This document shows positions 3,760 to 60,024 of a stretch of DNA of 61,395 nucleotides, piece by piece (the stretch's first letter is position 1; every line of letters starts with the position of its first letter). The notes under the pieces were generated by a model. The model ran no database searches. It was not told the DNA's origin and saw only the letters and a list, made by a program, of their open reading frames with translations. Position numbers and translations under genes: made by a program. This DNA is from an uncultured Prevotellaceae bacterium (GTDB lineage: Bacteria > Bacteroidota > Bacteroidia > Bacteroidales > Bacteroidaceae): NCBI GenBank assembly GCA_902782305.1, contig CACZMV010000012.1, positions 1 to 61,395 of the forward strand, given 5' to 3'.

Positions 3760-5832
3760 TCAGAACACGAAGCCCAGATTGATGTAATAATAGAACTTCT
3801 TCGTCACATTGCTGTAGCCGATGGAACCTCCCAACGGACCTAACATCGTGGTGTAGTAGTAGCTGAGGGTGCCGCCCAGCATCGTTCTGTGACTGAACAT
3901 GTCCTTGAGTTTCTCTGCGTCTTGTCCAGCAGCTACCCTTAGCAGAATGTTATTGTTGGTGGTGGGATTGAACTGCACTTGCAATTGTGCCGCAGCCAAG
4001 TTCTGCCAAGCCATCTCCAGATTGCCTGCACCCGCAAAGGGCACTTGTCCATCCGTATACTGATTGAACCATTCGCTACCCATGAAGTTGCTCATCACCA
4101 AAGGAATGTCGGTTCCCTCAACAAAACGTCCGTAAATCATGGGTTGGAAGGACAACTTGCTGCTCAGTGAGAAGTTGGAACGGAACATGGCAGCATATTC
4201 GGTGATACCCACCTTGTCGTTCAGCTTAATGAAATTGTCGGTAATGTAAGAAAACCTAGCCTGGAACCTCACACCGCTGGTGGGGAAGTACCACTTGTTC
4301 TCGCTGTTATACCACACCCTGCCTTGATAGCTGATGTAGCCCTTGTTCTTGACATTTTCATCGTTCAAGTGCTGTTGAACCTCCTTGTTTCCCAACAGCG
4401 AACGGTATTTGTAATAGTCCCAATTGGCTCCGATGCTGACATTGAAGTTGCGCACGTTGAAGTTGAAGAGCGACATCTTCACCGTATGCTGATCGTAGGT
4501 TAGGGTATAGACCTTATCGCCATATTCGTAGAAATCCATATCGTTGTTGCGATAGATATACGAAATGGTGGGTTGGATGAAGTGGGTGGGGTGCAGCGTC
4601 CAGTCAACCTGTGCCTTGATTCGCTTACCTAGACGCAGGGTCAGTTCCAGGTCCATAGGCATCTTGGTTTGAATGGGCATCTGCGCATTAGCCTGCAATG
4701 CCACAGCTTCCTCGTTGTCGAAGCGCACACCCAGATTGAATTGCGGGTCCTTCCTCATTTTGGGCTTGGCATTCTGTTCCTCGTCCGAAAGTGTTGTCAA
4801 CGGTATGGAGTGTGTGATTCGCTTCTGACTGACATATCTCAGTTTTTGGCGCAAAGCCACCAACTCGTCCCAATGGGCCATTGCAGCCTCCTCGCCTCGA
4901 CGTATCAGGGTGTCGATGGCTGCTTCAGTAAAGCTGGCTGCGCTGTATCCATCGGTATTCACACGAATCACGATGTCAGTCTTTTTCTTGTTCTCCTCGT
5001 ATTTATTCATGCAGAGCCAATTGGTTATCTGTCCTAAGATCTGCGTACCTGTTTGCAATTGGTCAGCACCCTTAGGAAGATCCTGCACATCCACGCCAAT
5101 CACGTAGTCGGCACCCATCTCACGAGCAATGTCAGCAGGGAAGTTGTTGCGCATTCCTCCATCAATCAGCACCATGCCGTCCATTCTTACAGGGGCAAAA
5201 ACGCCAGGAATAGCCATACTGGCACGCATGGCACGACTCAATATGCCGCTATGAAATACGTATTCCGTGTTGTCAACAATATTGGTTGCTACACAAGCAA
5301 AGCGGATGGGAAGTGTGTTGAAGTCGATGGAGTCGTTGTAAGGAGCCGTAATCCTATTGAAAAGGGGCGTGATGTTCTTGCCTCTGAGGAATCCGCCACC
5401 TTCTGCGTTGCCCACTTTTTTCTTCTTGCCCAGCGTGAGTGCTTTGGTCAGGATATAGGTGTTTTGCTTTTCGCGTAACTGCAAGTCCTGATCGCTTGAA
5501 CTTTCGCGGTCGGAAAGTAGCATGTTCCAGTCTTGCGAACGGACTACTGAGTCGAGTACTTCCGAGGAATGGCCGCAGGCATAGGCTCCGCCCACGATAC
5601 TACCCATACTCGTGCTGGTAATGATGTCGATGGGGAATCCTGCACGCTCCAGCACTTTCAGCACACCAATGTGGGCTACGCCCTTGGCGCCTCCACCACC
5701 CAGCACCAGTCCTATTTTGGGCGTCTTGCGCTGTTGCTGTGCCTTCTCGCTATTCTCTCCACTGACCGTTTGCAGACATACGAACAGCAGTAATATCGGT
5801 AGGTATCGTCTCATGTCTTTTTGCTTTTTCAT
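3760..5832 (-). CDS. Patatin-like phospholipase fused to an outer-membrane beta-barrel
   Basis: 690 residues with an N-terminal signal peptide. Residues ~38-240 are a patatin domain: oxyanion loop GGGGAKG, nucleophile segment TSTSMGS (the usual first Gly of GxSxG is Ser here) and the catalytic Asp in IDGGMRNNFP. A linker is followed by a C-terminal half rich in aromatic alternating strands that ends in YYYINLGFVF, like bacterial-surface-antigen (Omp85-type) barrels. The layout is that of secreted patatins with a barrel (PlpD/FplA-like): phospholipase displayed at or beyond the outer membrane. It follows radA with no gap (radA stop at 5835-5833, this ATG at 5832-5830), so translation is probably coupled. 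Substrate lipid unknown. Confidence 0.88.
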   Translation of the reverse strand: MKKQKDMRRYLPILLLFVCLQTVSGENSEKAQQQRKTPKIGLVLGGGGAKGVAHIGVLKVLERAGFPIDIITSTSMGSIVGGAYACGHSSEVLDSVVRSQDWNMLLSDRESSSDQDLQLREKQNTYILTKALTLGKKKKVGNAEGGGFLRGKNITPLFNRITAPYNDSIDFNTLPIRFACVATNIVDNTEYVFHSGILSRAMRASMAIPGVFAPVRMDGMVLIDGGMRNNFPADIAREMGADYVIGVDVQDLPKGADQLQTGTQILGQITNWLCMNKYEENKKKTDIVIRVNTDGYSAASFTEAAIDTLIRRGEEAAMAHWDELVALRQKLRYVSQKRITHSIPLTTLSDEEQNAKPKMRKDPQFNLGVRFDNEEAVALQANAQMPIQTKMPMDLELTLRLGKRIKAQVDWTLHPTHFIQPTISYIYRNNDMDFYEYGDKVYTLTYDQHTVKMSLFNFNVRNFNVSIGANWDYYKYRSLLGNKEVQQHLNDENVKNKGYISYQGRVWYNSENKWYFPTSGVRFQARFSYITDNFIKLNDKVGITEYAAMFRSNFSLSSKLSFQPMIYGRFVEGTDIPLVMSNFMGSEWFNQYTDGQVPFAGAGNLEMAWQNLAAAQLQVQFNPTTNNNILLRVAAGQDAEKLKDMFSHRTMLGGTLSYYYTTMLGPLGGSIGYSNVTKKFYYYINLGFVF

Positions 5833-7245
5833 TTATCCAAAGAGTGCTCTCAGTGCTTCTTCCACCTTGCGCACAGGTACCAACTCAATATTGAATTTCT
5901 TGCGATTCAGTCCACCTATATTATATTTAGGTATAATCATGTGCTGGAATCCCAGCTTTTCAGCCTCCGCAATGCGCTGTTCGATACGGGCTATGGGGCG
6001 TACCTCGCCACTCAGTCCCACCTCGCCAGCCATACACCATCCGCTCTCAATCGGCGTGTCAACATTGGAGGAGAGTACAGCAGCGATTACACTCAGGTCC
6101 ATCGCCATATCTGTGACCCTCAGTCCACCTGCAATGTTCAGGAAAACATCTTTCTGCATCAACTTGAAACCCACACGCTTTTCCAGCACAGCCAACAGCA
6201 TGTTCAGCCTGCGCTGGTCGAAACCGGTGGCTGAGCGCTGAGGTGTTCCGTAGGCTGCTGATGACACCAGCGCCTGCGTTTCAACCAAGAACGGGCGAAC
6301 ACCCTCAATAGCCGAGCTGATGGCAACGCCTGATAGACCGTCGTGATCTTCCGTCAACAATAACTCCGAGGGGTTCGACACTTGTCTGAGCCCTGTCTGC
6401 TGCATCTCGTAGATACCCAACTCTGAGGTGCTTCCGAATCGGTTTTTGATGCTTCGAAGAATGCGATACATGTAATGCTGGTCGCCCTCAAACTGAATGA
6501 CCGTATCCACGATGTGTTCCAGAATCTTCGGACCCGCCAGTGTGCCTTCTTTCGTGATATGACCTATCAGGACGACGGGCACTCCAGAGGTCTTGGCAAA
6601 GCGGAGTAGGGCGGAGGCACACTCGCGAACCTGGGCTATTGAACCAGCACTCGACTCAACATCCTCCGTCGATATGGTTTGTATCGAGTCGATAATCACC
6701 AACTCGGGTTCCACCTCTTTAATATGGTCGAAGATGGCCTCCAGCGAATTTTCGCAAAGAATCATGAAGTTATCGTCAGCGACAGAACCGCTGGCAGCAG
6801 TAATGCGCTCAGCTCTCATCTTCAGCTGATGGGCGCTCTCCTCACCACTCACGTAGAGGATTCGCTTTTCAGGCATGTTCAGCATGGTCTGAAGCGACAG
6901 CGTTGATTTACCGATGCCTGGTTCACCACCCAACAGCACAATGCTTCCTGGTACCAAACCGCCACCCAGCACACGGTTCAACTCCGCATCGTGCATATCG
7001 ATACGAGGGTCGTCCTGTGCAGAGATGTCCTTCAACCTAAGCACCTTGCCTGTCGCTAATGCTGAGGACTGTGCAGAGGTGCCTTTGTTCAGACCCTTCC
7101 TAGCCTCCCCTAACTTAGGGGAGGAACTGGCTACCTTGATCTCCTTAAACGTGTTCCACTGGCCACATGAAGGGCATTTGCCTATCCATTTGGCCGATTC
7201 CTGTCCACAATTGTCGCAGACGTACATGATTTTATCCTTTGCCAT
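5833..7245 (-). CDS. radA: DNA repair protein RadA
   Basis: 470 residues from the ATG at 7245; a longer upstream start would add non-family residues. RadA is a RecA-like, DnaB-type ATPase that drives branch migration in recombinational repair. Seen: N-terminal C4 zinc finger (C10, C13, C24, C27), Walker A in GEPGIGKST, the RadA-specific KNRFGST motif, and a C-terminal Lon-protease-like domain. The linker between zinc finger and ATPase carries SSPKLGEARKG, which is the translation of an inserted palindrome (7104-7124). A -7 box lies 9 nt before the start, implying a very short leader. The patatin gene follows directly. Confidence 0.95.
   Translation of the reverse strand: MAKDKIMYVCDNCGQESAKWIGKCPSCGQWNTFKEIKVASSSPKLGEARKGLNKGTSAQSSALATGKVLRLKDISAQDDPRIDMHDAELNRVLGGGLVPGSIVLLGGEPGIGKSTLSLQTMLNMPEKRILYVSGEESAHQLKMRAERITAASGSVADDNFMILCENSLEAIFDHIKEVEPELVIIDSIQTISTEDVESSAGSIAQVRECASALLRFAKTSGVPVVLIGHITKEGTLAGPKILEHIVDTVIQFEGDQHYMYRILRSIKNRFGSTSELGIYEMQQTGLRQVSNPSELLLTEDHDGLSGVAISSAIEGVRPFLVETQALVSSAAYGTPQRSATGFDQRRLNMLLAVLEKRVGFKLMQKDVFLNIAGGLRVTDMAMDLSVIAAVLSSNVDTPIESGWCMAGEVGLSGEVRPIARIEQRIAEAEKLGFQHMIIPKYNIGGLNRKKFNIELVPVRKVEEALRALFG
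7104..7124. repeat. Perfect 21-bp palindrome inside radA (REP-like)
   Basis: Arms CCTCCCCTAA and TTAGGGGAGG around a single C. It is in frame and encodes part of SSPKLGEARKG in a variable linker. Its form resembles extragenic palindromes rather than RadA coding sequence. Confidence 0.7.
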
Positions 7246-7254
7246 AATCGAGGG

Positions 7255-7262
7255 CAAAAGTA
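7255..7262 (-). promoter_or_regulatory. -7 promoter box of radA
   Basis: Minus-strand TACTTTTG, ending 9 nt before the radA ATG. No matching -33 box was found at 19-21 nt. Confidence 0.4.
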
Positions 7263-7358
7263 CAAAAATAATTTGAAACCTAGACACTTGTGCAAACGAT
7301 TTTGCATCAATAGAAAAGAAAAATGTATGTTGCGCATCATCGTATAAAGAAAAATGTG

Positions 7359-47957: not shown

Positions 47958-49199
47958 CTAAAGAATCGTATCCGGATTCAGCCACGTATCATCAGGCTTA
48001 GCGATGAGACGAGCATTCTGATAGACAGCATCCAACGGTAGGATTGTCTCTGGGGTGTAATACTCATTTTCCTTATCTGGAGTGAGTATTAGTGCAAAGT
48101 CCGGTTTACTGCTATAGGTGCCCTTCAGGTAGATGGGCATCAACAGTTGGATTTTACCCGTCTGAGGACGGTACATGGGTACAATGAACTTGTAGTTGCG
48201 CTGAGCTATGGCGACAGCAAAAGTGATGGCATCATCTAATTTGCGCCCAAGTTCATCAGAAGATGCGGACTGCATATCCACAGGGAAGCGTTGCCGGCGT
48301 TCCTCAATAATATGGGTGAACTTGTCGAAGTCCTTGTCTATTGCCCATGTAGGTTGATATATTACTTCTTCTACCTTCTCGAAGAAACGAGGCTGCTCTG
48401 GCTTTGTATCACGAGCGAAGCCAAGTTTGCGCAGCTCCAGTTCCTTTTTTACACGACGAGGATTCATCAGTAACTCACTGCTATCTTTCTGTTTGTGGAC
48501 CTCCACCACTATAAGAATTTCGTGGAAGTACTTATCCAACAGGTTAGTGTTGAAAAGGAGGTGCTTTCTATCCTGACTATACACGAGCTTGTTCTTCGCA
48601 CCTTTCTCTGCCTCCTTTTTAAGAACCTCGAAGGTGTTCTCAATGTACGATTTCAGAATAGGGTGGTTAACCGTAGAAGGCTTGTTCTTGAACGACCACG
48701 TCTCAGGAATAGTGCTGGCGGCAATGTCCTCAAGGAATGCAAGTCCATCTTCTTCGCTTTTGAAGTAGAGATCTCCCCAATGAAACATTCTCTCTGCTCG
48801 AATTTTAACATCAAGCGCCGCCTTTATCCCCCAATTAACGCCTCTGAAGGTTGCGTCTTTGCCCTTGCGCTCGAACCAACCGATGATGGGTTCTCCCGTT
48901 TGATTAGTCAAGCCTGTGTCAAAGTACAAATATGTGGCGTCTTTCTGTTTGACAGCCTCGCCCGAACGAGTCTTGTCGTAACCATACCTATTGAGGTAAA
49001 CGATGCATGCTCCATCAACGATAGTATTGAGTTCTGTTGTACTTACTTGCTTATCGTCGGCAAGCATCTTGTTGAGCTCAGCCTTGCAAGTACATAGGTT
49101 TGTCACATAGCCAAGTTTTAAAAGGCCTGCCTTGGGGCTTGACTGGTTATTTACTCGGGCCTGTGCCCCTCCGTTTGTGTTGATCATCTGATTTTTCAT
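47958..49199 (-). CDS. DUF3825 domain-containing protein
   Basis: 413 residues. An 18-residue N-terminus is shared with 47507-47782. Residues ~45-170 read as a nucleic-acid-binding-like alpha-beta region with DATYLYFDTGL, FHWGDLYFKSEEDGLAFLEDIA. The C-terminus (YKFIVPMYRPQTGKIQLLMPIYLKGT, PDFALILTPDKENEYYTPETILPLDAVYQNARLIAKPDDTWL) is the DUF3825 signature. Function of the family is unknown; it often occurs in accessory regions. Own promoter and dyad at 49275-49345. Confidence 0.78.
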   Translation of the reverse strand: MKNQMINTNGGAQARVNNQSSPKAGLLKLGYVTNLCTCKAELNKMLADDKQVSTTELNTIVDGACIVYLNRYGYDKTRSGEAVKQKDATYLYFDTGLTNQTGEPIIGWFERKGKDATFRGVNWGIKAALDVKIRAERMFHWGDLYFKSEEDGLAFLEDIAASTIPETWSFKNKPSTVNHPILKSYIENTFEVLKKEAEKGAKNKLVYSQDRKHLLFNTNLLDKYFHEILIVVEVHKQKDSSELLMNPRRVKKELELRKLGFARDTKPEQPRFFEKVEEVIYQPTWAIDKDFDKFTHIIEERRQRFPVDMQSASSDELGRKLDDAITFAVAIAQRNYKFIVPMYRPQTGKIQLLMPIYLKGTYSSKPDFALILTPDKENEYYTPETILPLDAVYQNARLIAKPDDTWLNPDTIL

Positions 49200-49368: not shown

Positions 49369-50457
49369 TTAATGATGGCTATTATATAATTCAGCCATTT
49401 TCTCAATCCTTTCTCTGAGGATGTCGCGGACTTCTTTTGGAGCAACGATTTCCAGTCCATCACCCATTTGCAATATGCGCCCAATGAATTCATTGTTAAC
49501 TTCAACATCAAAAGTAAACTCTCCATAAACTCCATCGGCATGTTCTCCGAAGGGAAAAACGGTTTCTTGGCTTTTATGGAGTTTCTTCGTCTCCATTAGC
49601 TTAAATATATACAATGAATGCGCGCGCACACGTATCATTCCATAATAATTGTCTTCCTGATGACTTACACCTACGATTTTCTCGAAAAATGCTTCATAGA
49701 ACCTATCTGGAGCACAGATAAACTCTTTATCATATACTTCTCTTGGCTTACCGACGATTCTATCTAAAGCCAGATCAATCCCTTCTTTGGGGGTTGTTTC
49801 TTCTACATACCCGAATAAATGCCATCGTCCATTATACTCCTTCAGGTAGTGAGGATGGAATATAAGAGTCACCTTTTCTTCTTCATATGGCTTGTAATCA
49901 ATGGAGAGAACTTGATGATTCTTGATAGACTCATACAGCATAGGAAGGTATTCAATGTTAGTCTGATGTCTGTCGATACTCGAACTAATGAGCTGCTCCC
50001 CTTTTTTCCTCTTTGTCTTGATAGACAACAAATCTTGGCAATCAGCAAAATAGTACTCAAGCCAAACGTCAGGAAAGAAACCTGCTGAATCCTGACAGAA
50101 CTCCCAGTATTTCTTCAAGTCCTTGACAACTCTCGAATTTATCATTGCTGAAAGAGGATTATCATTGGCGCCTACATATCGAAAACTCTTATTTCTATTA
50201 TTGCCTTGCTCTTCAATACAACTTTCTCCAACCTCTTTGACAATAGCACTAGACACGTCTCTAAAGGCCTTTCTTAGCTCTCCGTATTTTTCACAATCTG
50301 AGACATTACATGGTAATTCTTTAGATGAAGACAATCCCAAATGGTCTGCCATAACATCAGCGTAAGTGATCCACTTGCGACTCACAAATCTCTTATAGGT
50401 TCCCCTTGCGAATAATGCGTAAAAGCTATCGCCATCAAAGATATTATTACGTGCCAT
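49369..50457 (-). CDS. WYL-domain protein, probable transcriptional regulator
   Basis: 362 residues. N-terminal part (~20-60, RKWITYADVMADHLGLS) looks like a helix-turn-helix; residues ~180-290 are a WYL domain: VLSIDYKPYEEE, FHPHYLKEYNGRWHLFGYVEE, LALDRI. The eponymous tripeptide is W-H-L. C-terminal WCX-like extension (GEFTFDVEVNNEFIGRILQMGDGLEIVAPKEVRDILRERI). WYL regulators control several phage-defence operons and sense nucleic acid or nucleotides (established for CapW/BrxR types). Its ATG directly follows the stop of the ATPase gene, so it is the last gene of that operon and may control it. Confidence 0.85.
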   Translation of the reverse strand: MARNNIFDGDSFYALFARGTYKRFVSRKWITYADVMADHLGLSSSKELPCNVSDCEKYGELRKAFRDVSSAIVKEVGESCIEEQGNNRNKSFRYVGANDNPLSAMINSRVVKDLKKYWEFCQDSAGFFPDVWLEYYFADCQDLLSIKTKRKKGEQLISSSIDRHQTNIEYLPMLYESIKNHQVLSIDYKPYEEEKVTLIFHPHYLKEYNGRWHLFGYVEETTPKEGIDLALDRIVGKPREVYDKEFICAPDRFYEAFFEKIVGVSHQEDNYYGMIRVRAHSLYIFKLMETKKLHKSQETVFPFGEHADGVYGEFTFDVEVNNEFIGRILQMGDGLEIVAPKEVRDILRERIEKMAELYNSHH

Positions 50458-52089
50458 TTAAGTTCTATTACTAAGATATTGTTCTATTCTTTCGTTTACC
50501 TCATGACAATATTTTTTTGCGAGTTCAATACGTACTTGTGGAATGCCAGGATTGTTGTGTGCTTTAATATTACGTACTTCGTTAATTGTATAGAATTTTT
50601 TGCACCAATAATAATCCCACGTATTTCCAAAAATTTTCCCAAACCAATGCCATTCACGTTTAATAAAAATCTCTGGCAAGTCGGACGGCTCACTATAGTC
50701 AGTAAGAGAAGATGACATGTCAGGATATTTCTTTAAATTCTTTGTCATCTTTCTTCTCATTGCATCAAATCGTCCTTTAGCCGTATATCTTGTTTCTTCA
50801 TCCTTGTCAAAGCTGTTTATATTTTTTGTTTCAAGGTCTTTTATCATTTTGGCTTCATCTCCTTGATACACATCATCGCAGAAGCATTTGACTATTTTCC
50901 TCATATTACCTTCTGCTTTTGACCATTCATCGCCAAAAGGTAAAATGTATCGTTTGAGATTCATCCATTCTGTAAAATATCGAGAAATAACGATTCGTAT
51001 AGGTCCATTAGGTTCGGTTAGAATTTGATTTTTATTAATTACGCCATAGCGTTCCAATTCTGACATGTCTTCATTTGAAATTTCCTCATCAGGCCCCCAT
51101 GTAGATAGAATAAGAGAACGTAGTAACTGCCATTTTTCCATATCTCGCCATACGGCCCAATTAAAGGCATCATGCAATTTGTTAACTAATATTTCGCTCA
51201 AATTAAAGTCGGAAGTATTGTTGCAAATGTATTCAAAGGATTCTTGTTCTGACCAATAACATCCGTTTAGTAAATTTAGTAAGCAAGGATGGTTTCCGAC
51301 ATAGTACTGTACGTTTTGGATATATGACCCAGAGATTGTAACCCCAATTCTTTTACTGATAGACGCCCAATAATCATTCATGTCTTCCTCGTTGAACATT
51401 TTCAACTTGCAACCATTTACAAATATCGGTGCTAGTGTAGAGACATTCGCATTCACTGCGCCTTCAACTTCCCTTTCAATCCTTTCGACCATTCTCCTTG
51501 ATGCAATAACAGCCCTTATTCCATAGTCTGAGCTACTAAACAATGTTCTAAAGTTACCTACAGTCGCTTTGGTCGCAATCGTTGAAAAATTATCGAATTC
51601 ATCTATAAGAACTAATCCTAAAAAGCCTGCAACTTTCATGCATTTTGCAACCGAGCAAACATACTCATAGTCTATAATGTTGTCATCAATGCCTTCAAAT
51701 TCTAATTCTTCCTCAAAAGAAATATATTTTTGATTTGAGCCAAACTTCTTTTTAAGTTCTTTACGCAGTTCCTTTCCAATCATTCTCCACATTGATTTTG
51801 AGTCATCGCATTTATCCAAAGATATGTTGATAACTATTAAATCAAGATTATAATGATTTTCATGAACCATTCCTCTAAAAGCCTTCAGTAAAGATGACTT
51901 ACCTATTCTTGGAAGCCCTACAACATGATAGTTGCAAATTTTGTTAGGATAGACTACATCACGATGCATTTCTGCCAACACAGATTTACGGCCTACGAAA
52001 TATTCCCCTATAGCTTCTTCTGTTGGTGAAGCAAAAGGATTTCCTATAAATGTTTGATTTTGGCCATTTGTTAATTGTTCAGTATCCAT
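50458..52089 (-). CDS. STAND-like ATPase with C-terminal HEPN-type RX4H motif
   Basis: 543 residues. N-terminal GNPFASPTEEAIGEYFVGR box, Walker A GLPRIGKSS (58-66), Walker B GLVLIDEFDN (158-167), then helical and winged-helix-like segments to ~370. C-terminal region (~380-543) is helical and ends EVRNIKAHNNP with R506 and H511: RX4H, the catalytic signature of HEPN ribonucleases, placed as in Swt1/abortive-infection HEPN domains. I infer a sensor ATPase with a toxic RNase effector. It overlaps the end of the 1692-residue gene by 19 nt and abuts the WYL gene. AT-rich like its operon. Confidence 0.75.
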   Translation of the reverse strand: MDTEQLTNGQNQTFIGNPFASPTEEAIGEYFVGRKSVLAEMHRDVVYPNKICNYHVVGLPRIGKSSLLKAFRGMVHENHYNLDLIVINISLDKCDDSKSMWRMIGKELRKELKKKFGSNQKYISFEEELEFEGIDDNIIDYEYVCSVAKCMKVAGFLGLVLIDEFDNFSTIATKATVGNFRTLFSSSDYGIRAVIASRRMVERIEREVEGAVNANVSTLAPIFVNGCKLKMFNEEDMNDYWASISKRIGVTISGSYIQNVQYYVGNHPCLLNLLNGCYWSEQESFEYICNNTSDFNLSEILVNKLHDAFNWAVWRDMEKWQLLRSLILSTWGPDEEISNEDMSELERYGVINKNQILTEPNGPIRIVISRYFTEWMNLKRYILPFGDEWSKAEGNMRKIVKCFCDDVYQGDEAKMIKDLETKNINSFDKDEETRYTAKGRFDAMRRKMTKNLKKYPDMSSSLTDYSEPSDLPEIFIKREWHWFGKIFGNTWDYYWCKKFYTINEVRNIKAHNNPGIPQVRIELAKKYCHEVNERIEQYLSNRT

Positions 52090-55000
52090 TTTACAAATAA
52101 TTTAACATTAATTGAATAACCTTTATCTTGCTTTGAAATAACTCTGCGATCATATAAATTACCTAATACACTTTTTAGCTTTTCTGGGGCGAAGTCAATA
52201 TGCAAGTCATCCATGTTGACGTAACCTCCTGCACGAGTATGTTCTGCTATCGCCTTAAGAACTCTTATGTTATCTGCTTCATTAAAATCAGATCCGTCAG
52301 CCTCTTTTGTAAGGCATTCAAATGTTGATTTTTCAAGTCTGTGCGTTCCCGTACATAGACGCTCTGCTACGATTTCAATTTCTTCCTTACCAACTACATT
52401 GCTTTTCTCAGAATTCAAATAATCTACGAGCCTCGTACAGAAGATTTGTGTAAAGAAAGCACTTCCCGACGTGTAGTCGTATATGAGTTCGTCACTGTGA
52501 TTGTGAAATATAACGTCCTTAATCGGATTTTTAATCAGTTGAAGAGCTTCTTCTTTATTTAGATAAGAAAGAGGTTCTTTACTAAACTTATTGAAGCAAT
52601 TAGAGGCGTAACTTTCATTCATAAAATGTGGTAACGTATCTTGAGCAGCAACTATTGCTTGAAGATTAATTCCTGGCTTCTCTATAAGCGCAATCCATCT
52701 TCGCATGAAATCCTCATTGACTTTTTTGTTTTTAATTAGTTGGTATAGATATGTAAACTCATCAATAAATATAACGAAGTGGGAATCTTTTAGTTCGTCT
52801 ATAGTATTAATATGTTCAATAAAATCCCCTAAAGCAGTGAAAGCATCAGGTTCTTCGGTAAAGAAATTTGAAACAGTGGATTTGTTAAATCCATGCTTGC
52901 GAATGCCTGGTAATAAGGATTCTGCTATTGATTTAAGTATCCATCTTACGGGATTAAGTTCATTGTCAGGTAATCCTAGTAGATTGAACTTGCCACAAAT
53001 GACAGAATGAGAGTCGTCTAATTCCAGCTTTCCTTTTATTTGATTAAGCAAAGAACTTTTTCCTGAACGCTTTTGACCATAGATAGCTATTTGATTCTTT
53101 GTACCTTGCAAAATGGCTTCTTGGATGTCATTAATGAGTTTGTTTCTGCCATAAAACATTTCATCACCAGCCTCCAACTCTTCACCGCCAGAACATTGTC
53201 GGAATTTATTCTCAATTTCAACAAAAGGTTTGATTTCGAAATTAATAGTTTTACATATTATACTGCTCCTTGGAATCCTCTGTTCAGTGGCGATATAAAT
53301 ATCATCATAATCAATTTCAAATTCCACTTCTGCGATTTTTCCGTCCGCAGCATTATCACTCAAAGGAAGTTCAACGTTTATCACTTTATCGCCACCAGCA
53401 GGAAGTGTAACGTCTATATTTATATTATTATCCTCTGCTAAATCGTCACCATAGACATTCAAACTGTTAATATGAACACTACGAGCACTATCACCAGAAT
53501 TCCTAATTTCAACCTTTAATTCTACAGATTTGGTATCCTCCAATCCAACAGAACCCAAAATTCCAACCTGTATTGTTGGATTTGCTCTTTGCTCTAATTC
53601 TTCAAATTTAACACAGACATTCTTTTTCAGCAACCTAAGAGCGGGTAAGATAGTTTCATATCCAATTTCCGTTGGATGGTCAATTAGATTAGGAATAATA
53701 GCACCAATTTTTTGAATAATATTGTTATAAGCATCGCAAATAGCATTATACTTTTGCCCCGTATTAAAGTCTGTCAAATCAGAGACAATCTTAATAAAAT
53801 CGTTTTTAACAACAGTCATTTCGTTATCAAGCAGTATTGATGATGTCTGAAGATATGAAATGAAAGACATAAAGTTTTTTGCTGGATTTGCGGAATATTG
53901 GGTGTATCGCTTTTTTATTTCATTTAAAATAGTAGGGTATTCATTAAAACTATCTATATTTTTCCCGACCTTCTCGTATTCTCTGATAAGCAGATCCTTT
54001 ATGTCTGCATTTGACTCTGCAAGCAAAGATAGTTCCAAAGTATTATCGACTTCGTTCACAAGTATCTTTTTCAACAAATCATCGAATTTATAATCACTTT
54101 GACGCCCACTCATGTACATATCAATTTCTGATGATGTATAATCACCAAGTGTCATAAGATATAAGCCAACAGTATCATCAAACCCTTTCTCAAATGATTT
54201 GAGACGAAAGGCTAATCGGAGTAGGTATCTTACTTCATTGTATCTTTGCTCTTCTCCGGCAGCTATTATATTTTTAGCTCGGATAACAAGGTACTTTGCT
54301 ATATCATCCTTTGGATTATACTCTTTGGGATGGAACGCCAATTGAAGCTTCATCAATGTCAAATAGGTTTTATCATCGGCATTATTTAGTTTAATGGATT
54401 TGATATAATCCTCTTTATATAAACCTGTTCTTATAGTATCTTTATCGGGGGTAATACCATTAAATTCTTTATAAGCTAATATGGAATCTCGAACAAAAAC
54501 TGGAATAAACGGGAAAGCGTGCCTCGATATTTCAAGGTTTTGTGCTATGGTTTTTTCGTTTATTTCTATTCTATTAGATAATCTATCAGACAAGCTGTTT
54601 ATATTTTTGAGAAAAGTGCGGAAATAAGACACCTTCCCTTTCTCTCCTTTATACACTTCTAATGCCTTATTTATCAAGTGTTTTGCCGCATCATACATAT
54701 TATGAGATCTTGCATAACTTGAAGAACGCAAGAACAAATTATAACACTTTGCCGGATCCTTTTTAACTACCTCATCTATTAAATACTCAATTGCAATGAC
54801 ATATTCGTCTGGAGAAAGATTTTCTGCAAATCGTTTTTCCACATCATTTGGAGAAAATGATGCCCTGGGGTTGACTTCAACTTGTTCAAGATAATAAGCT
54901 AATCCACCTGTATTACCAGATGCTTCTGAGTAAAGTGTGTCAAAATCATCAATATGTTTCTTTAAATGGGAATATGTCTTTGTGTCGTAGCGGAATTTCT

Positions 55001-57149
55001 CTAACAAATCTTCAACAACATCCTTTGTGCATTGTTTGTGTATACAAAGACCGATTGGTCCTTGGCTGTTTTGCCCAATAGAATATACAACTTCATCTCC
55101 CACATTTGGTGATTCCAAAATCCCAGAATATGAAATCAATTCTGAAGTATAAAAATACAAATCTTTTTCTTGATTATAAGGTTTAATATATCCATAAGCA
55201 GCCCACATCTTCTTGATCTTACCCATTGAAGGAAGCAAGTCGCTGACATTATCGATGTAGATAGAATCATTAGGTTTTGCCGTAACTACATCATCAACAT
55301 CTCCCTCTTTTTTCTTTTTAGGCTTTAAAACCTCTGTCAAGTCGATTTTTCCAATAATCTTTGGACCTTGAATTGGCGTAACTTTGGGCTTGGATATTTC
55401 TTCTTCTTCAGATAAGGGCAAGTTAGAAGAATCTATTTGACTATTTTCATTGTCAGAGGGATTCACACCAATATTTACAACAGAAGAGTTGTCTTCAGGA
55501 ATATCATGCGATGATTCCATTTCGGTTTCATCATCGTTATTTATACCTTCATGTATACTATCATCTGTAAATAAAGCCGAAGAAGACAATAGATTTTTTA
55601 GTTGCTTTTTGAGTTCCCTTACCTTTTGAAGATTCTCAGTATGACTAATATTTTTCATAATAAAAGTCAACAAGCTCAATATTTGAGTTCTTTTATTATC
55701 TGAGACCCTATTTTGGTTGGACAAGAAACCTTCTAATGTTTCATAGAGTTCATAATATGACATCTCCATTATGACGCAATAAACTTTATCTTTTTTAAAT
55801 GGAAAAACAAAAACTCTTTGCCCTTTAACTAATTTTTCTTTGTTGTACCCGATAATTGAGCCTTTATAACAAGAGCCTGTATTACTGTCATCTGTGGTTA
55901 TCCATACCCTTCTGCTTTCCACCATGGTGATGGTAGCATTTGTATCGATTGTTGATGAGGAGTACAAACCTTCCGCTATCAAAATATCCTTTATGATGGC
56001 ACTAGCAAAAGAAAGGTCAATAGAGGTGACGCTATTGGAAGAGAACTTTGATTCAATACTTGAGATAGCATTACATCTGATTCTAATTGAATAATTATCT
56101 TTCAGCTCTAGCTGAACAAATTGCTTATTAAGAATTACGACTTTGCCACTCTTTAAAACTCCAAAAGTATTTATTTCCACATTATCACCAAGTTGAACTC
56201 CGTCTAAAATATCAAGAGGCTCCTGATTTCTTCCGACAATATTTGCAACATCGGAAGACTTTGATATATTATCCAAAGGGAATCGAAGATAAACCATAGT
56301 ATTTCCTACATTTCGTCTTTGCAAAGAATCACCAAATATTGCCTCTAAGAATAATATAAGTTTACGAAAACCATATTGAGAGTACTTTACCCCATTGGCT
56401 TTGAGTTTTGGAGCAATTTTTACGATATCTAACCATCCTTCTGAATCAGGAGTACAACTTTGAGTAATAATAGATAGTATTTTTTTAGCGACAGCATCCC
56501 TTTCTTCGTTTGGCAAAGTGATTATTTCGTTAGAATTGTCATCTTGGTAAGATGCTTCATCTTTATTAATATGCTCATCCTGGTCATCACTATCAAGGGA
56601 ATCCATTTTTTCAGATCCTGTGTTTATTTCATCTATAGCTGGTGTGGGCTTTTCTATGATTCCTTTCATCTCAATATCATTTTCAAATGATTTTATTGCC
56701 AAAGTCATTAAAGGTTGTGCGATTTTTTGGAGACGAATGCCTGGCCAACTGATTGGACTGGCATAACTAGCTTTAAGAATTTCACTTGTTAAAGGAACAT
56801 GATGAAAACTAAACACAACGTCACCATATTTTAAATACAAACAATATTCGTCTTTGTTGTAATAATATGACACATCATTGCTTTTAAGAACATCAATAAC
56901 TGTTACTAATTTTGCCGCATTAGCTTTTATTAAGTCATAAGACAAGTTGTCTTTGAACAATTCTGTCTTAATAGCCGCATTCAAAAGATTTAAAGCGCAT
57001 AGCATCAGAAACACCTCATCTTCATTCCTCGGATGAAGAAATAAGACAACATTAATAGCCTTCTTTACCATTTCCTCGTTTATGGGCATACTTTCTCCTT
57101 GGCCAAACTGATTGTATAATTCGATGGCGCTATTGCTAATCTCATTCAT
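52071..57149 (-). CDS. Giant multidomain protein: OST-HTH-like, cold-shock-like, helical, Ig-like and ATPase regions
   Basis: 1692 residues, no membrane segment. Regions: 1-160 unique; 215-292 OST-HTH/LOTUS-like (SEGWLDIVKIAPKLKANGV, YSQYGFRKLILFLEAIFG); 510-600 acidic disordered; 641-706 cold-shock-like (MGKIKKMWAAYGYIKPYN, LYFYTSELI, GDEVVYSIGQNSQGPIG); 750-1180 helical repeats (TPR-like); 1190-1310 Ig/CARDB-like; 1330-1600 P-loop ATPase with Walker A GQKRSGKSS (~1358) and Walker B HFVIFIDEF (~1457), then a C-terminal winged helix. OST-HTH and cold-shock folds bind RNA, so RNA sensing is likely (inference). First gene of the operon, preceded by TATATTTG. Confidence 0.75.
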   Translation of the reverse strand: MNEISNSAIELYNQFGQGESMPINEEMVKKAINVVLFLHPRNEDEVFLMLCALNLLNAAIKTELFKDNLSYDLIKANAAKLVTVIDVLKSNDVSYYYNKDEYCLYLKYGDVVFSFHHVPLTSEILKASYASPISWPGIRLQKIAQPLMTLAIKSFENDIEMKGIIEKPTPAIDEINTGSEKMDSLDSDDQDEHINKDEASYQDDNSNEIITLPNEERDAVAKKILSIITQSCTPDSEGWLDIVKIAPKLKANGVKYSQYGFRKLILFLEAIFGDSLQRRNVGNTMVYLRFPLDNISKSSDVANIVGRNQEPLDILDGVQLGDNVEINTFGVLKSGKVVILNKQFVQLELKDNYSIRIRCNAISSIESKFSSNSVTSIDLSFASAIIKDILIAEGLYSSSTIDTNATITMVESRRVWITTDDSNTGSCYKGSIIGYNKEKLVKGQRVFVFPFKKDKVYCVIMEMSYYELYETLEGFLSNQNRVSDNKRTQILSLLTFIMKNISHTENLQKVRELKKQLKNLLSSSALFTDDSIHEGINNDDETEMESSHDIPEDNSSVVNIGVNPSDNENSQIDSSNLPLSEEEEISKPKVTPIQGPKIIGKIDLTEVLKPKKKKEGDVDDVVTAKPNDSIYIDNVSDLLPSMGKIKKMWAAYGYIKPYNQEKDLYFYTSELISYSGILESPNVGDEVVYSIGQNSQGPIGLCIHKQCTKDVVEDLLEKFRYDTKTYSHLKKHIDDFDTLYSEASGNTGGLAYYLEQVEVNPRASFSPNDVEKRFAENLSPDEYVIAIEYLIDEVVKKDPAKCYNLFLRSSSYARSHNMYDAAKHLINKALEVYKGEKGKVSYFRTFLKNINSLSDRLSNRIEINEKTIAQNLEISRHAFPFIPVFVRDSILAYKEFNGITPDKDTIRTGLYKEDYIKSIKLNNADDKTYLTLMKLQLAFHPKEYNPKDDIAKYLVIRAKNIIAAGEEQRYNEVRYLLRLAFRLKSFEKGFDDTVGLYLMTLGDYTSSEIDMYMSGRQSDYKFDDLLKKILVNEVDNTLELSLLAESNADIKDLLIREYEKVGKNIDSFNEYPTILNEIKKRYTQYSANPAKNFMSFISYLQTSSILLDNEMTVVKNDFIKIVSDLTDFNTGQKYNAICDAYNNIIQKIGAIIPNLIDHPTEIGYETILPALRLLKKNVCVKFEELEQRANPTIQVGILGSVGLEDTKSVELKVEIRNSGDSARSVHINSLNVYGDDLAEDNNINIDVTLPAGGDKVINVELPLSDNAADGKIAEVEFEIDYDDIYIATEQRIPRSSIICKTINFEIKPFVEIENKFRQCSGGEELEAGDEMFYGRNKLINDIQEAILQGTKNQIAIYGQKRSGKSSLLNQIKGKLELDDSHSVICGKFNLLGLPDNELNPVRWILKSIAESLLPGIRKHGFNKSTVSNFFTEEPDAFTALGDFIEHINTIDELKDSHFVIFIDEFTYLYQLIKNKKVNEDFMRRWIALIEKPGINLQAIVAAQDTLPHFMNESYASNCFNKFSKEPLSYLNKEEALQLIKNPIKDVIFHNHSDELIYDYTSGSAFFTQIFCTRLVDYLNSEKSNVVGKEEIEIVAERLCTGTHRLEKSTFECLTKEADGSDFNEADNIRVLKAIAEHTRAGGYVNMDDLHIDFAPEKLKSVLGNLYDRRVISKQDKGYSINVKLFVKWILNN

Positions 57150-57182
57150 ATTCGTGTTTTATATTTAATCCGAATTTTAGCG

Positions 57183-57190
57183 CAAATATA
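57183..57190 (-). promoter_or_regulatory. -7 promoter box of the giant-protein operon
   Basis: Minus-strand TATATTTG, ending 33 nt before the ATG at 57149. No good -33 box. Confidence 0.5.
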
Positions 57191-57285
57191 CACATTATTT
57201 ATTAGAAAAGAGTTAGAAACGTAAATAAAAAGGCTTGATAATAATCATTTTTAATATTTCCTGCTCACATTTGGGGAATAATTGC

Positions 57286-57293
57286 TATCTTTG
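57286..57293 (+). promoter_or_regulatory. -7 box of the small transcription unit
   Basis: TATCTTTG, 80 nt before the first tiny ORF. The nearest TTTG (57270-57273) is only 12 nt upstream, so the -33 box is non-standard. Transcript predicted from ~57300 to 57589. Confidence 0.5.
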
Positions 57294-57372
57294 CACTGCT
57301 TTTGCAAGCTCATACTGGTCTGGAAGTAGGCACGACCTTAATATACCTACATAACTTAAATTGAAGCAGACG

Positions 57373-57432
57373 ATGGAAACAATAGTTTTAAGTAACTGCA
57401 GTTTTAACAACTGCGTTTTCAATGACTGTTAG
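57373..57432 (+). CDS. 19-residue Cys/Asn-rich peptide ORF
   Basis: Encodes METIVLSNCSFNNCVFNDC. The second half is built from N-C-x-F-N units, like a fragment of pentapeptide-type repeats, with three cysteines. The stop TAG lies at the start of an 11-bp inverted repeat (TTAGATTGAGG at 57429-57439, CCTCAATCTAA at 57454-57464). Too short for automatic callers. Translation is not proven; position within a promoter-terminator unit is the only support. Confidence 0.4.
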   Translation: METIVLSNCSFNNCVFNDC

Positions 57433-57468
57433 ATTGAGGTTGTAAACTAGAAGCCTCAATCTAACAAG

Positions 57469-57546
57469 ATGACAAGAGGTGAAAAGTGGAGCCTAGGCAT
57501 CACTATAATGAGTTTTATTGCTCAAGTCATCTCAATGATTCTTTGA
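57469..57546 (+). CDS. 25-residue hydrophobic peptide ORF
   Basis: Starts MTRGEKW and continues with a hydrophobic stretch (SLGITIMSFIAQVISMI) long enough to span or insert in a membrane. Charged N-terminus plus single helix is the shape of type I toxin peptides and of small membrane-acting effectors. It begins 4 nt after the inverted repeat and ends 14 nt before the terminator. Not proven; could also be chance. Confidence 0.4.
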   Translation: MTRGEKWSLGITIMSFIAQVISMIL

Positions 57547-57560
57547 TTGAGCAGATAGTT

Positions 57561-57589
57561 CTTGGAGGGCATCAAGCCCTCCAAGTTTT
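57561..57589 (+). terminator. Perfect intrinsic terminator
   Basis: CTTGGAGGGC, loop ATCAA, GCCCTCCAAG, then TTTT. Ten uninterrupted pairs, 14 nt past the 25-residue ORF. Confidence 0.9.
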
Positions 57590-57690
57590 GTATGCTCCAT
57601 ACATAAGCATACAAGCTAGCAACTAGCGAGCATCCATACTATAGCCTGCTTCTATACTTACCCATAAGTACGGCTACAGTATGCCTACAC
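57588..57690. other. Dense cluster of inverted repeats
   Basis: TTGTATGCT/AGCATACAA (57588-57614), GCTAG/CTAGC (57615-57627), TACTTA/TAAGTA (about 57654-57669) nested in TACT-TAGCC/GGCTA-AGTA with one mismatch. TGCCTAC (57682-57688) also complements GTAGGCA at 57326-57332, so the two ends of the 57.3-57.7 kb region can pair. No protein-coding signal. Confidence 0.5.
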
Positions 57691-57773
57691 CCTAAGTAAG
57701 ACTCACCAACTATTTAATTATGCCATGGGAAAATATGGGAATAGTGATTAGTATATGACAAAATTGGTAGACA

Positions 57774-57805
57774 TTTGGTTTTCTCCGAATTATTTATTAT
57801 CTTTG
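57774..57805 (+). promoter_or_regulatory. Promoter of the 57845 gene
   Basis: Perfect TTTG (57774-57777), 20 nt, TATCTTTG (57798-57805), 39 nt before the ATG. Confidence 0.85.
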
Positions 57806-57844
57806 CAGACGTAATTATGAAATAAAGAATCTTGAGAATAAATT

Positions 57845-58330
57845 ATGGAAACCAAAGTTATAATAAGACAATGTCACACACATGATGTGAGTATTAAAAT
57901 GCTTGCATATGTTGTTTATAATCACATAGAATTGTTTGGAAACGACGAAGGGGAAAATATATCAATTACACATGAATTTCCTAACACAATAGGCAAAACA
58001 ACCTGTATAGATACTGATTTAGTTGAAAATCCAGATATCTATTATACAACTCGTGGCAATCGTAAATACATGTCTAGAATGATCCGAGGCGTTGAAGCCC
58101 AGAATTGTTCTTGCATGACAATGGTTATTCGGAAATATAGGTGGGAACACAAAAGTGATGTAAATTTACTATTTGTATATGTAGTAACTTCATATATTGG
58201 CAAAAAGGCTCCAAAAGAATATACGGAAATACAATATAAGCGTTCCATAGGACATATTGACTTTACACAAGAAGAAGAGAAAGAGGCCGAAGTTTTTTGG
58301 AGTCACCATGCATTGTTAGAAGAATTATGA
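57845..58330 (+). CDS. Uncharacterised 161-residue protein
   Basis: Soluble, no signal peptide. Visible: METKVIIRQCHTHDVSIKMLAYVVYNHIELFG, a central TTRGNRKYMSRMIRG and CSCMTMVIRKYRWEH, hydrophobic NLLFVYVVTSYIGKKAPKEY, acidic C-terminus (QEEEKEAEVFWSHHALLEEL). No family recognised. Own strong promoter. Located between the predicted small transcription unit and the DUF3800 gene in an AT-rich accessory stretch. Confidence 0.7.
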   Translation: METKVIIRQCHTHDVSIKMLAYVVYNHIELFGNDEGENISITHEFPNTIGKTTCIDTDLVENPDIYYTTRGNRKYMSRMIRGVEAQNCSCMTMVIRKYRWEHKSDVNLLFVYVVTSYIGKKAPKEYTEIQYKRSIGHIDFTQEEEKEAEVFWSHHALLEEL

Positions 58331-58515
58331 TTAATTGTCTCCGAACCATACAGCTTCCCCCTCCCTTGCTACTCTCTTTCTAGCCCCTTGCTACGCCTAC
58401 GCTCTGTCTACGCTAGACCTATGCTACACAATTTCAAAGATAGCACAATAAATCCCCGAAAACATTACTATTTCTCGTAAAAGTTTTGTATCTTTGCAGG
58501 CATATTAAATAAACT
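58331..58515. other. Intergenic region with CTAC-rich stretch and DUF3800 promoter
   Basis: 58358-58425 is C/T-rich with TTGCTAC twice and several CTACGC-like words, including the small hairpin GTCTA-CGC-TAGAC; nothing recognisable. TATCTTTG at 58489-58496 is the -7 box for the DUF3800 gene, 19 nt before its ATG. Confidence 0.45.
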
Positions 58516-59376
58516 ATGTATTACATCTGGACAGACGAGAGTGATTCTACAGGTAAGTACTATGCCAATTTCTATGGTGGTATACTTATCCGGTCGGAGC
58601 ATTATGAAGAGGTGCTCCAAAGGCTTTCTGCTATAGTGAAAGAAGTCGGACTTGAGGGCGAAGAAATTAAATGGCAGAAGGTGAACGAGTACACAGAACA
58701 AAGATACAAGAGAATCATGGATGTCTTGTTTGAATTGCTGAGCGAAGGGAAAGCAAAGATTAGAATTTTCTTCCGGCATCGGCAATACAAGGCTTTTGAG
58801 TTGAATAATGAACAAAGGAGACATGAATATCAGATTCTTTATTATCATTTCATCAAGAATGATTTCGGACTAATTTATAGCAATCCGAAAGGAAAGGACG
58901 TTAGGGTAAGATTGCTTATTGATGACATGCCACTGAAAGGACCTGATAGGGATAGTTTCCTGAAGGCAATCTACCATTTAAATGATTTGGTCCAATTTCA
59001 AAAGGCACACATACATATTAAAGACGGTGATGTTGCAGAAGTCAATTCCAAGAAACATTTACCATTACAAGTGATGGACGTTGTGCTAGGGGCTATGTGT
59101 TTCCGTCTGAATGATAAACACAAAGAACGTGGTATTGACGGAAAGCGCGCCAAGCGGAACATAGTTAAGGAAAGGCTATATAAACACATCTCGAAAAGAA
59201 TCTTTGAACTACACCCAGGTTTTAATATCGGTATGACAACACCTATCACTAAGAAGTCTGACTTATGGGAAGAGCCATATTTACACTGGAACTTTGTCCC
59301 CAAACGTTTCACGAAGGATAAGAAATTTACGAAGCATCATAAAAAAGAAACAGCCCCGTACAACCTACACGAGTGA
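58516..59376 (+). CDS. DUF3800 domain-containing protein
   Basis: 286 residues. N-terminal YYIWTDESDSTGKYYANFYGGIL is the DUF3800 Asp-Glu-Ser motif; a second acidic strand is RLLIDDMPL, and the C-terminal LPLQVMDVVLGAM completes the RNase H-like pattern. Catalytic activity is not established for the family, though the acidic set suggests a nuclease. Often found in defence islands and mobile regions. The C-terminal tail is strongly basic (KDKKFTKHHKKE), suiting nucleic-acid contact. No partner gene is coupled. Confidence 0.85.
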   Translation: MYYIWTDESDSTGKYYANFYGGILIRSEHYEEVLQRLSAIVKEVGLEGEEIKWQKVNEYTEQRYKRIMDVLFELLSEGKAKIRIFFRHRQYKAFELNNEQRRHEYQILYYHFIKNDFGLIYSNPKGKDVRVRLLIDDMPLKGPDRDSFLKAIYHLNDLVQFQKAHIHIKDGDVAEVNSKKHLPLQVMDVVLGAMCFRLNDKHKERGIDGKRAKRNIVKERLYKHISKRIFELHPGFNIGMTTPITKKSDLWEEPYLHWNFVPKRFTKDKKFTKHHKKETAPYNLHE

Positions 59377-59423
59377 GCTACGTCAACGTAACCTTTCAGT
59401 TGCAAAGGACTTATTTCTGGTTG

Positions 59424-59454
59424 CAAAGTTACAACATTTTTTTGAATAACCAAA
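59424..59454 (-). promoter_or_regulatory. Orphan promoter antisense to the DUF3800 gene
   Basis: Minus strand: TTTG (59454-59451), 19 nt, TAACTTTG (59431-59424). No leftward gene follows, so it would give antisense RNA over the DUF3800 3' end, or it is a relic. Confidence 0.5.
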
Positions 59455-59616
59455 AGATTTCTGGAAAAACTTGCTATTATTTATCAAAATAGGTATCTAT
59501 TTGTTGTTTTATGATGTCTTTTATTTGCTTTCGTAATTTATTATCACCACTTGACCTTAAGTCGCTTTGCTAGTCAAAGAAACCTTGTGAAAGGGGAAGG
59601 AGAGGGTAGGGACAAG

Positions 59617-59643
59617 AAAAAAGGAAGCCTGGCGGGCTTCCTT
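59617..59643 (-). terminator. Terminator after the MNT gene
   Basis: Read leftward: AAGGAAGCC, loop CGCCA, GGCTTCCTT, then TTTTC. Nine perfect pairs, 30 nt past the stop. Confidence 0.85.
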
Positions 59644-59673
59644 ATATTAATTATTATTATGGTTAACTGATTA

Positions 59674-59967
59674 TCAGACATAAATCACATCACGATTAAT
59701 ATTTGATTTGAAAAGAGGACGCAGGGAGTCGCGAAGTCTTACCAAATCAACCTCGCAGCCAAAGAGTTGCTTCAAAGCTTCTTTCAACTCGTACATCAAT
59801 TGAAGTGTAGGCTTTTTAACCTCCACTACAATATCGATATCACTATCCTCAGTGTGTTCGTTTCTTGCAACAGAACCGAAAATTCCGAGTCTAGTTATTC
59901 CATACTTCTTAGCAAACATCTTCTTGAAGTCTGACAACTTATGAATACAGTCTTGAAGTACTAGCAT
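59674..59967 (-). CDS. MNT-type nucleotidyltransferase (MntA/MNT antitoxin family)
   Basis: 97 residues. Minimal nucleotidyltransferase with GIFGSVARNEHTEDSDIDIVVE (GSx10DxD) and a third acid in CEVDLVRLRD. Such proteins usually pair with a HEPN toxin gene of ~110-140 residues (type VII-like HEPN/MNT), modifying it by AMPylation. No HEPN partner is adjacent here, so it is orphan. Strong promoter upstream and terminator downstream make it monocistronic. Confidence 0.9.
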   Translation of the reverse strand: MLVLQDCIHKLSDFKKMFAKKYGITRLGIFGSVARNEHTEDSDIDIVVEVKKPTLQLMYELKEALKQLFGCEVDLVRLRDSLRPLFKSNINRDVIYV

Positions 59968-59992
59968 AACATCCTTTTATTATTTCTGCCTG

Positions 59993-60024
59993 CAAAGATA
60001 GCATATTTCTGCTTATCTTCCAAA
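59993..60024 (-). promoter_or_regulatory. Promoter of the MNT gene
   Basis: Minus strand: TTTG (60024-60021), 20 nt, TATCTTTG (60000-59993), 25 nt before the ATG. All bases match consensus. Confidence 0.85.

Follow-up and report, generated by a model that had tools for sequence, protein, structure and literature searches.

A candidate two-ATPase conflict operon with a probable Swt1-like HEPN domain in an uncultured Prevotellaceae bacterium

What is the role of an operon that encodes, one directly after the other, a giant ATPase with RNA-binding-type domains and a smaller ATPase with a probable ribonuclease (RNase) domain at its end? The question is raised by a 61,395-nucleotide stretch of DNA from an uncultured Prevotellaceae bacterium (GenBank assembly GCA_902782305.1, contig CACZMV010000012.1), hereafter the window, which is an entire contig (C12) of a source genome of 2.94 Mb in 68 contigs that is 88% complete. 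An initial annotation, made from the letters alone, had marked three genes, which lie on its minus strand from 57149 to 49369, as a possible undescribed defence operon. Working from domain similarity, gene order, the conserved HEPN motif and ATPase sites, purifying selection, and recurrence of the gene pair, we propose with about even confidence that the operon encodes a two-NTPase (nucleoside triphosphatase) threshold-type RNase conflict system, probably anti-phage, in which the giant protein would sense and switch and the HEPN domain of its partner would execute.

The operon and its two ATPases

In the list of open reading frames (ORFs), the operon begins with the gene for a giant STAND-type ATPase (52071..57149, minus strand, 1692 residues), continues on the same strand with that for an AAA/STAND ATPase bearing a C-terminal Swt1-like HEPN domain (50458..52089, 543 residues), and ends with that for a WYL-WCX regulator (49369..50457, minus strand, 362 residues), which is co-transcribed judging by its position. 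The first two genes overlap by 19 nucleotides and the second and third abut with zero gap, the layout that the initial annotation had described. Its remark that the region is more AT-rich than the core genes also holds, the operon having a guanine-plus-cytosine (GC) content of 35.0% vs 49.0% in window bases 1-42000; the AT-rich block extends past the operon, with 36.4% GC in 57150-60000. The nearest relative of the operon lies in Prevotellaceae bacterium UBA1710 (locus L002), which shares downstream genes with the window. Measured against the L002 orthologues, nonsynonymous divergence (dN) is 0.31 for the giant, 0.19 for the 543-residue protein and 0.36 for the WYL protein, and synonymous sites are near or at saturation (proportion of differing synonymous sites, pS, 0.74-0.82). 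The three frames are therefore real genes, and the purifying selection on all three rules out chance ORFs.

The two products are, as first noted, different P-loop ATPases, each with both nucleotide-binding motifs by pattern match. The giant has a Walker A motif G1358QKRSGKS and a Walker B motif FVIFIDEF at 1458, and the 543-residue protein has Walker A G58LPRIGKS (58-65) and Walker B LVLIDEFD (159-166); the Walker A and B patterns are present in all four giants and all eight partner-type proteins compared.

Most of the domain assignments gain strength from relatives. For the C-terminal domain of the 543-residue protein, comparison with relatives points to a probable Swt1-like, RNA-cutting HEPN domain. 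In an alignment of eight HEPN-ATPases (one further locus, L025, was left out owing to its interrupted frame), HEPN_Swt1 matches five members (best E 3.3e-5; on the relative P0008 it scores 15.5 bits, below the cut-off of 27.5), and the PADLOC candidate model PDC-M34B matches four (best E 1.9e-9), falling on P0008 at residues 360-473, the HEPN region. The window protein carries R506NIKAH511, that is R506-N-x3-H511, by pattern match; RN-x3-HN is found in 7/7 HEPN-bearing relatives, and R, N, x3, H and N are among the invariant columns, at an identity to the window protein of 26-30% (73% for L002). The RX4H claim of the initial annotation is thus upheld for R506 and H511 by the motif and by the family, and not by a HEPN match of the window protein itself, for which Pfam gives only weak sub-cut-off matches of the AAA_22 and nSTAND1 type, plus chance ones.

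The ATPase of the giant (residues ~1329-1563, minus strand, of ATPase_2/nSTAND type) is placed by Pfam matches above cut-off to ATPase_2 (1332-1563, E 1.3e-10) and nSTAND1 (E 3.2e-7). Upstream of it, on the same minus strand, lie several smaller segments. A helical N-terminus, recognized by inspection, is followed by an OST-HTH/LOTUS segment (56265..56522, residues ~215-290), where OST-HTH (PF12872) matches residues 220-271 with E 0.0066 and 16.7 bits, below the cut-off of 23.8; in the L002 orthologue (P0004) the match stands exactly at the gathering score, 23.8 of 23.8 bits (E 4.2e-5). Next comes a small Sm/SH3-like segment (56034..56216, residues ~312-372), so labelled by inspection, which bears a weak resemblance to the N-terminal end of the giants at L005 and L006 (hhalign E 0.016, probability 2.8%), in a domain order that matches those proteins. 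A linker with a GKIDL..PKKK motif leads to the cold-shock domain segment (55026..55238, residues ~638-708), to which the Pfam family CSD aligns at 643-698 (E 3.2e-4, 21 bits, below the cut-off of 27). A four-row CSD profile (A7; window, L002, L005, L006) matches UNR/CSDE1 structures with a best E of 3.8e-4, and between the two groups of giants, window/L002 vs L005/L006, the CSD segments align with hhalign E 0.0014 and probability 17.6%; mismatched domain pairs used as a control gave E 0.35, 0.46 and 0.49, and in one case a match at 0.044 over nine columns. Between the cold-shock domain and the ATPase, a helical region and a beta-sandwich are visible by inspection. Of the two RNA-binding regions first suggested for the giant, the cold-shock one is therefore borne out by profile, and the OST-HTH one reaches the cut-off in L002 and falls below it in the window. 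Among 198 genomes of the order, only the window's own gave a match to the N-terminal, OST-HTH-bearing part (profile A5), which is present also in L002; the OST-HTH domain looks like a lineage addition to the giant.

The co-occurrence that the initial annotation had named as a check is observed. All three genes recur together in L002, and the two ATPase genes stand adjacent in L005 and L006, two further genomes from the taxonomic order of the window. A full-length giant occurs at four loci (window, L002, L005, L006) and is directly followed by the partner gene in 4/4, with junctions of a 19-nucleotide, a second 19-nucleotide and a 1-nucleotide overlap and an 11-nucleotide gap. Three further loci (L010, L011, L012) match the ATPase part of the giant only and stand outside this count. 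With the own genome included each time, the giant is found in 3/295 genomes of the order and 1/395 of the phylum, and the partner profile in 6/384 genomes of the order; the spread is patchy and the three-gene operon rare.

A proposed mechanism and competing explanations

In the proposed system the giant would both sense and switch. The RNA-binding-type domains of its N-terminal part (cold-shock, and LOTUS in this lineage), together with its helical region, may engage a ligand that is tied to infection, RNA or an RNA-protein complex being the most likely, whereupon its STAND ATPase would change state. The partner, made from the same transcript, would be a second STAND-type ATPase with intact motifs and a HEPN RNase; the activated giant would contact it in a hetero-oligomer, allowing HEPN domains to pair, cut RNA and so arrest either the cell or the phage. 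As a lineage-specific transcriptional regulator, the WYL protein would tune expression of the operon. The ligand, the complex, the RNase activity, the regulation and the anti-phage outcome are all parts that we infer, and the initial annotation, which had likewise cast the giant as an RNA sensor that activates its HEPN partner, is plausible but says more about sensing and activation than the data show. Were the proposal right, it would describe a testable form of immunity set off by RNA, with sensing and killing divided between two ATPases whose ATP sites are both intact, and would link LOTUS-type RNA binding to bacterial conflict; the short list of motifs concerned (two Walker sites, R506, H511, the CSD surface) would make testing easy.

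We entertain more tentatively a bolder version, a two-stage RNA-sensing relay in which an NLR-like giant (LOTUS, Sm-like, cold-shock) licenses an independently active STAND-HEPN executor, with effectors swapped between lineages. At L006 the partner stops before the HEPN domain; the next ORF is short, runs off the end of the contig and looks hydrophobic by inspection, and it may be such an effector swap. The LOTUS domain is best known from germ-granule and piRNA biology and has been studied mostly in animal germ cells; the relay, if true, would give it a place on the sensing side of an NLR-like antiviral switch, and would amount to a sensor-NTPase to executor-NTPase design that matches no PADLOC system model.

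Several observations weigh against the proposed system. The HEPN region of the window's 543-residue protein has no match of its own in Pfam or PADLOC, and a PDB search with the HEPN profile (A8) turned up no HEPN chain. Pfam detects CSD in only two of the four giants (P0001 of the window, and P0006 of L006 with E 0.001), both below cut-off, and does not list it for the L002 (P0004) or L005 (P0005) giants; a two-row OST-HTH profile (A9) gave no LOTUS structure in the PDB. Four of the eight HEPN-ATPase loci (L021-L024) lack an adjoining giant, solo status at L021 and L023 being judged on 520 and ~790 bases before the contig end, so the giant is not obligatory to the HEPN-ATPase; one of these solos, L024, sits between phosphate-transport-like genes and a nucleoside phosphorylase gene, with no obvious defence island. 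The tree of the ATPase part separates window and L002 from the rest (100/100), and the paired L005 and L006 group with the solos, in a portion of the tree that is poorly resolved and in which the L006 branch is long. Low GC relative to the surroundings is seen in the window, L002 and L005 and not in L006, L021 or L022. The operon genes share 59, 71 and 57% identity with L002, vs 70 and 74% for flanking genes; operon and flanks are thus about equally diverged, and recent transfer is not shown. Moreover, no relatives were found in phage records, viral contigs or plasmids, apart from the ATPase part at L012.

The solos bear most directly on the role of the giant: they mean that the HEPN-ATPase can be kept without it, and that the giant might just as well act as a brake. 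The HEPN-ATPase would then be a self-sufficient STAND-HEPN toxin or sensor and the giant an antitoxin-like partner rather than an activator, which would also suit a giant that is always found with its partner (4/4 loci); its intact ATPase motifs and RNA-binding-type domains exceed the needs of a simple antitoxin, and we regard this explanation as unlikely. The neighbourhood of L024 is an ordinary metabolic one, and LOTUS and cold-shock domains serve RNA housekeeping, so that the operon might be a host RNA-surveillance or stress-response module, clearing for instance aberrant RNA or ribonucleoprotein, and not a phage defence. The vertical-looking divergence between window and L002, with downstream genes common to both, would fit such a module, yet it would leave a very patchy distribution (the 3/295 genomes above), a defence-type effector and neighbours, and the possible effector swap at L006 harder to understand, and we consider it improbable.

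A third explanation, which we think rather doubtful, is that the operon is a plain member, with an enlarged sensor, of the nSTAND2 two-gene system already in the literature. In the accessible part of their text, Kaur et al. 2021 (PMC8195603) predict a mobile operon of two genes whose products are both STAND NTPases, one of which, with eroded NTP-binding motifs, carries a HEPN or GT4 effector, and propose a hetero-multimer. Of the known systems this one stands closest: it shares adjacent genes that both encode a STAND-type NTPase, as seen at the window, L002, L005 and L006, and HEPN as one of the fused effectors. Additionally, nSTAND2 (PF20702) matches four of the eight HEPN-ATPases weakly (at E up to 1, best E 0.0024), yet the window's 543-residue protein is unmatched up to E 1 and P0008 scores 14.6 bits vs a cut-off of 24. 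A search for the family across genomes gave 0/148 and was uninformative, its controls being silent too. What separates the two is the effector-side ATPase, which is eroded in the system as described there and has intact Walker motifs in 8/8 proteins here, so the pair fails the defining point of that system. Nor does the GT4-domain section of that paper describe a giant that has CSD, OST-HTH and repeats.

The WYL gene, distant relatives and surroundings

That a WYL protein ends the operon is confirmed by WYL and WCX domains above the Pfam cut-off in the 362-residue protein, and it matches a CRISPR-associated WYL model of PADLOC (E 6.7e-21); a PDB search with it gave no convincing match. The gene follows the two ATPase genes in L002 and is apparently a lineage-specific accessory: a three-gene core that includes it was rejected, given that the ORFs flanking the pair at L005 do not include it and that it is not seen at L006 either, where the contig ends ~400 bases past the pair. 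The L006 genome carries a WYL relative on another contig, and relatives occur in 20/149 genomes of the order, the own genome included. Of 10 loci scanned among 14 (L032-L045, with L038, L041, L044 and L045 dropped), at one neighbour each and by eye, nine have a neighbour of a restriction- or toxin-type family (N6_Mtase four times, AAA_15/AAA_21 twice, a ResIII helicase, AbiEii, and RhuM/Fic) and the tenth neighbour has no match; the rate is biased by this manner of scanning, and further WYL-relative places without a locus lie outside it. These families are common in defence. In the own genome, a further WYL relative (C9:68195-68791) has one in-frame stop in its otherwise open frame.

Relatives of the giant's ATPase part occur together with other defence components, which speaks for the proposed system. 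At L010 (7500-10682) one is fused to PRTase_III-A (E 1.6e-40), in a cluster that is type I restriction-like by inspection; on an Acinetobacter plasmid (L012, 9268-14827) a type I methyltransferase is fused to a giant-type ATPase and followed by an AAA gene, and a gene annotated as WYL lies further upstream. At L011 the relative is a single gene with no other label. The STAND frame at L025 (~3980-7266), interrupted in this assembly, adjoins Septu-like ATPase and HNH genes, by inspection. Three HEPN-ATPase paralogues occur in one genome, G016 (L016, L019 and L020, the same as L021-L023), with a giant seen beside none of them; two of the three are close to contig ends.

Around the operon itself, a DUF3800 gene (58516-59376, plus strand), 1.4 kb away, matches the PADLOC candidate PDC-M04A (E 1e-13), suggesting a small defence island. 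A search for empty sites by flanking gene gave 0/4 genomes and was uninformative. Just downstream of the WYL gene lies a gene for a DUF3825 protein (47958-49199, minus strand, E 2.5e-60), which is not among the ORFs at the corresponding place in L002; no mention of DUF3825 was found in the literature searched. A small nucleotidyltransferase gene (NTP_transf_2) occupies 59674-59967 on the minus strand, and no HEPN gene was noticed beside it, no search having been aimed at one. Upstream of the giant, TATATTTG (57183..57190, minus strand; first base 41 nucleotides upstream of the giant's ATG) fits TAnnTTTG, the consensus of the Bacteroidota -7 element; a promoter-pattern scan returned 39 sites vs 39.6 expected in shuffled sequence, which is no excess. 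By eye, the plus strand shows a 19-codon ORF (57373-57432) rich in Asn, Cys and Phe that follows a TATCTTTG element and precedes a terminator-like hairpin at 57561-57585, possibly a leader peptide or a small RNA. An Rfam search gave no match and a tRNA search found none.

Comparison with known systems

Among the window proteins and their relatives, no PADLOC system model fits with full-length component matches. MADS, which is a set of mad1-mad8 proteins, was rejected, the three window proteins yielding no more than a short mad8 match, which falls on the P-loop region (E 0.0029). The candidate PDC-M34B is a model of 192 positions that covers the HEPN part only and leaves the window protein unmatched; the name PDC-M34 does not occur in the literature searched. 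DefensePredictor (PMC13092281) reports HEPN systems, none of which, in the accessible part of that paper, has the present layout.

Published architectures come closer. CoCoNuT systems, as presented in the accessible text of PMC11090510, are type IV restriction systems that add a CSD, a beta-sandwich, an NTPase and HEPN to an McrBC core, with RNA proposed as the target; they share with this operon the joint presence of cold-shock domain, beta-sandwich, NTPase and HEPN RNase. Membership was nevertheless rejected, as the three proteins have no McrB or McrC match in Pfam and have ATPase_2/STAND-type ATPases instead. Bacterial OST-HTH domains are described in the part of PMC2848206 at hand as occurring chiefly in fusion with a DUF88 nuclease and in some cases with S1 or cold-shock folds, and in PMC8195603, within the same portion as above, OST-HTH is fused to S1 domains in TERNS3 conflict systems. 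TERNS3 is similar in bringing OST-HTH and OB-fold RNA-binding domains together within a conflict system, and differs in its MoxR-vWA ternary core; a scan of the three operon genes plus seven neighbours found no MoxR or vWA match here.

A single-protein precedent is given in Table 1 of Anantharaman et al. 2013 (PMC3710099), where a Swt1-like HEPN is fused to a STAND-ATPase, TPR and S1 (Npun_F6454, MED222_16016, Desac_1927). These fusions, as tabulated, combine a mostly active Swt1-like HEPN with a STAND ATPase, helical repeats and an OB-fold RNA-binding domain, all of which have counterparts here; by their description they are set apart from the present operon, in which these elements are divided over two genes with two ATPases and joined by OST-HTH and WYL. 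No paper naming the operon's domain combination was found in the literature searched, most subscription papers lying outside it. The initial annotation's view that this is no named system therefore stands in so far as no PADLOC model fits, but close designs are already predicted or listed in the accessible parts of PMC8195603 and PMC3710099, and the domain combination is a version of a design already published and does not amount to a new kind.

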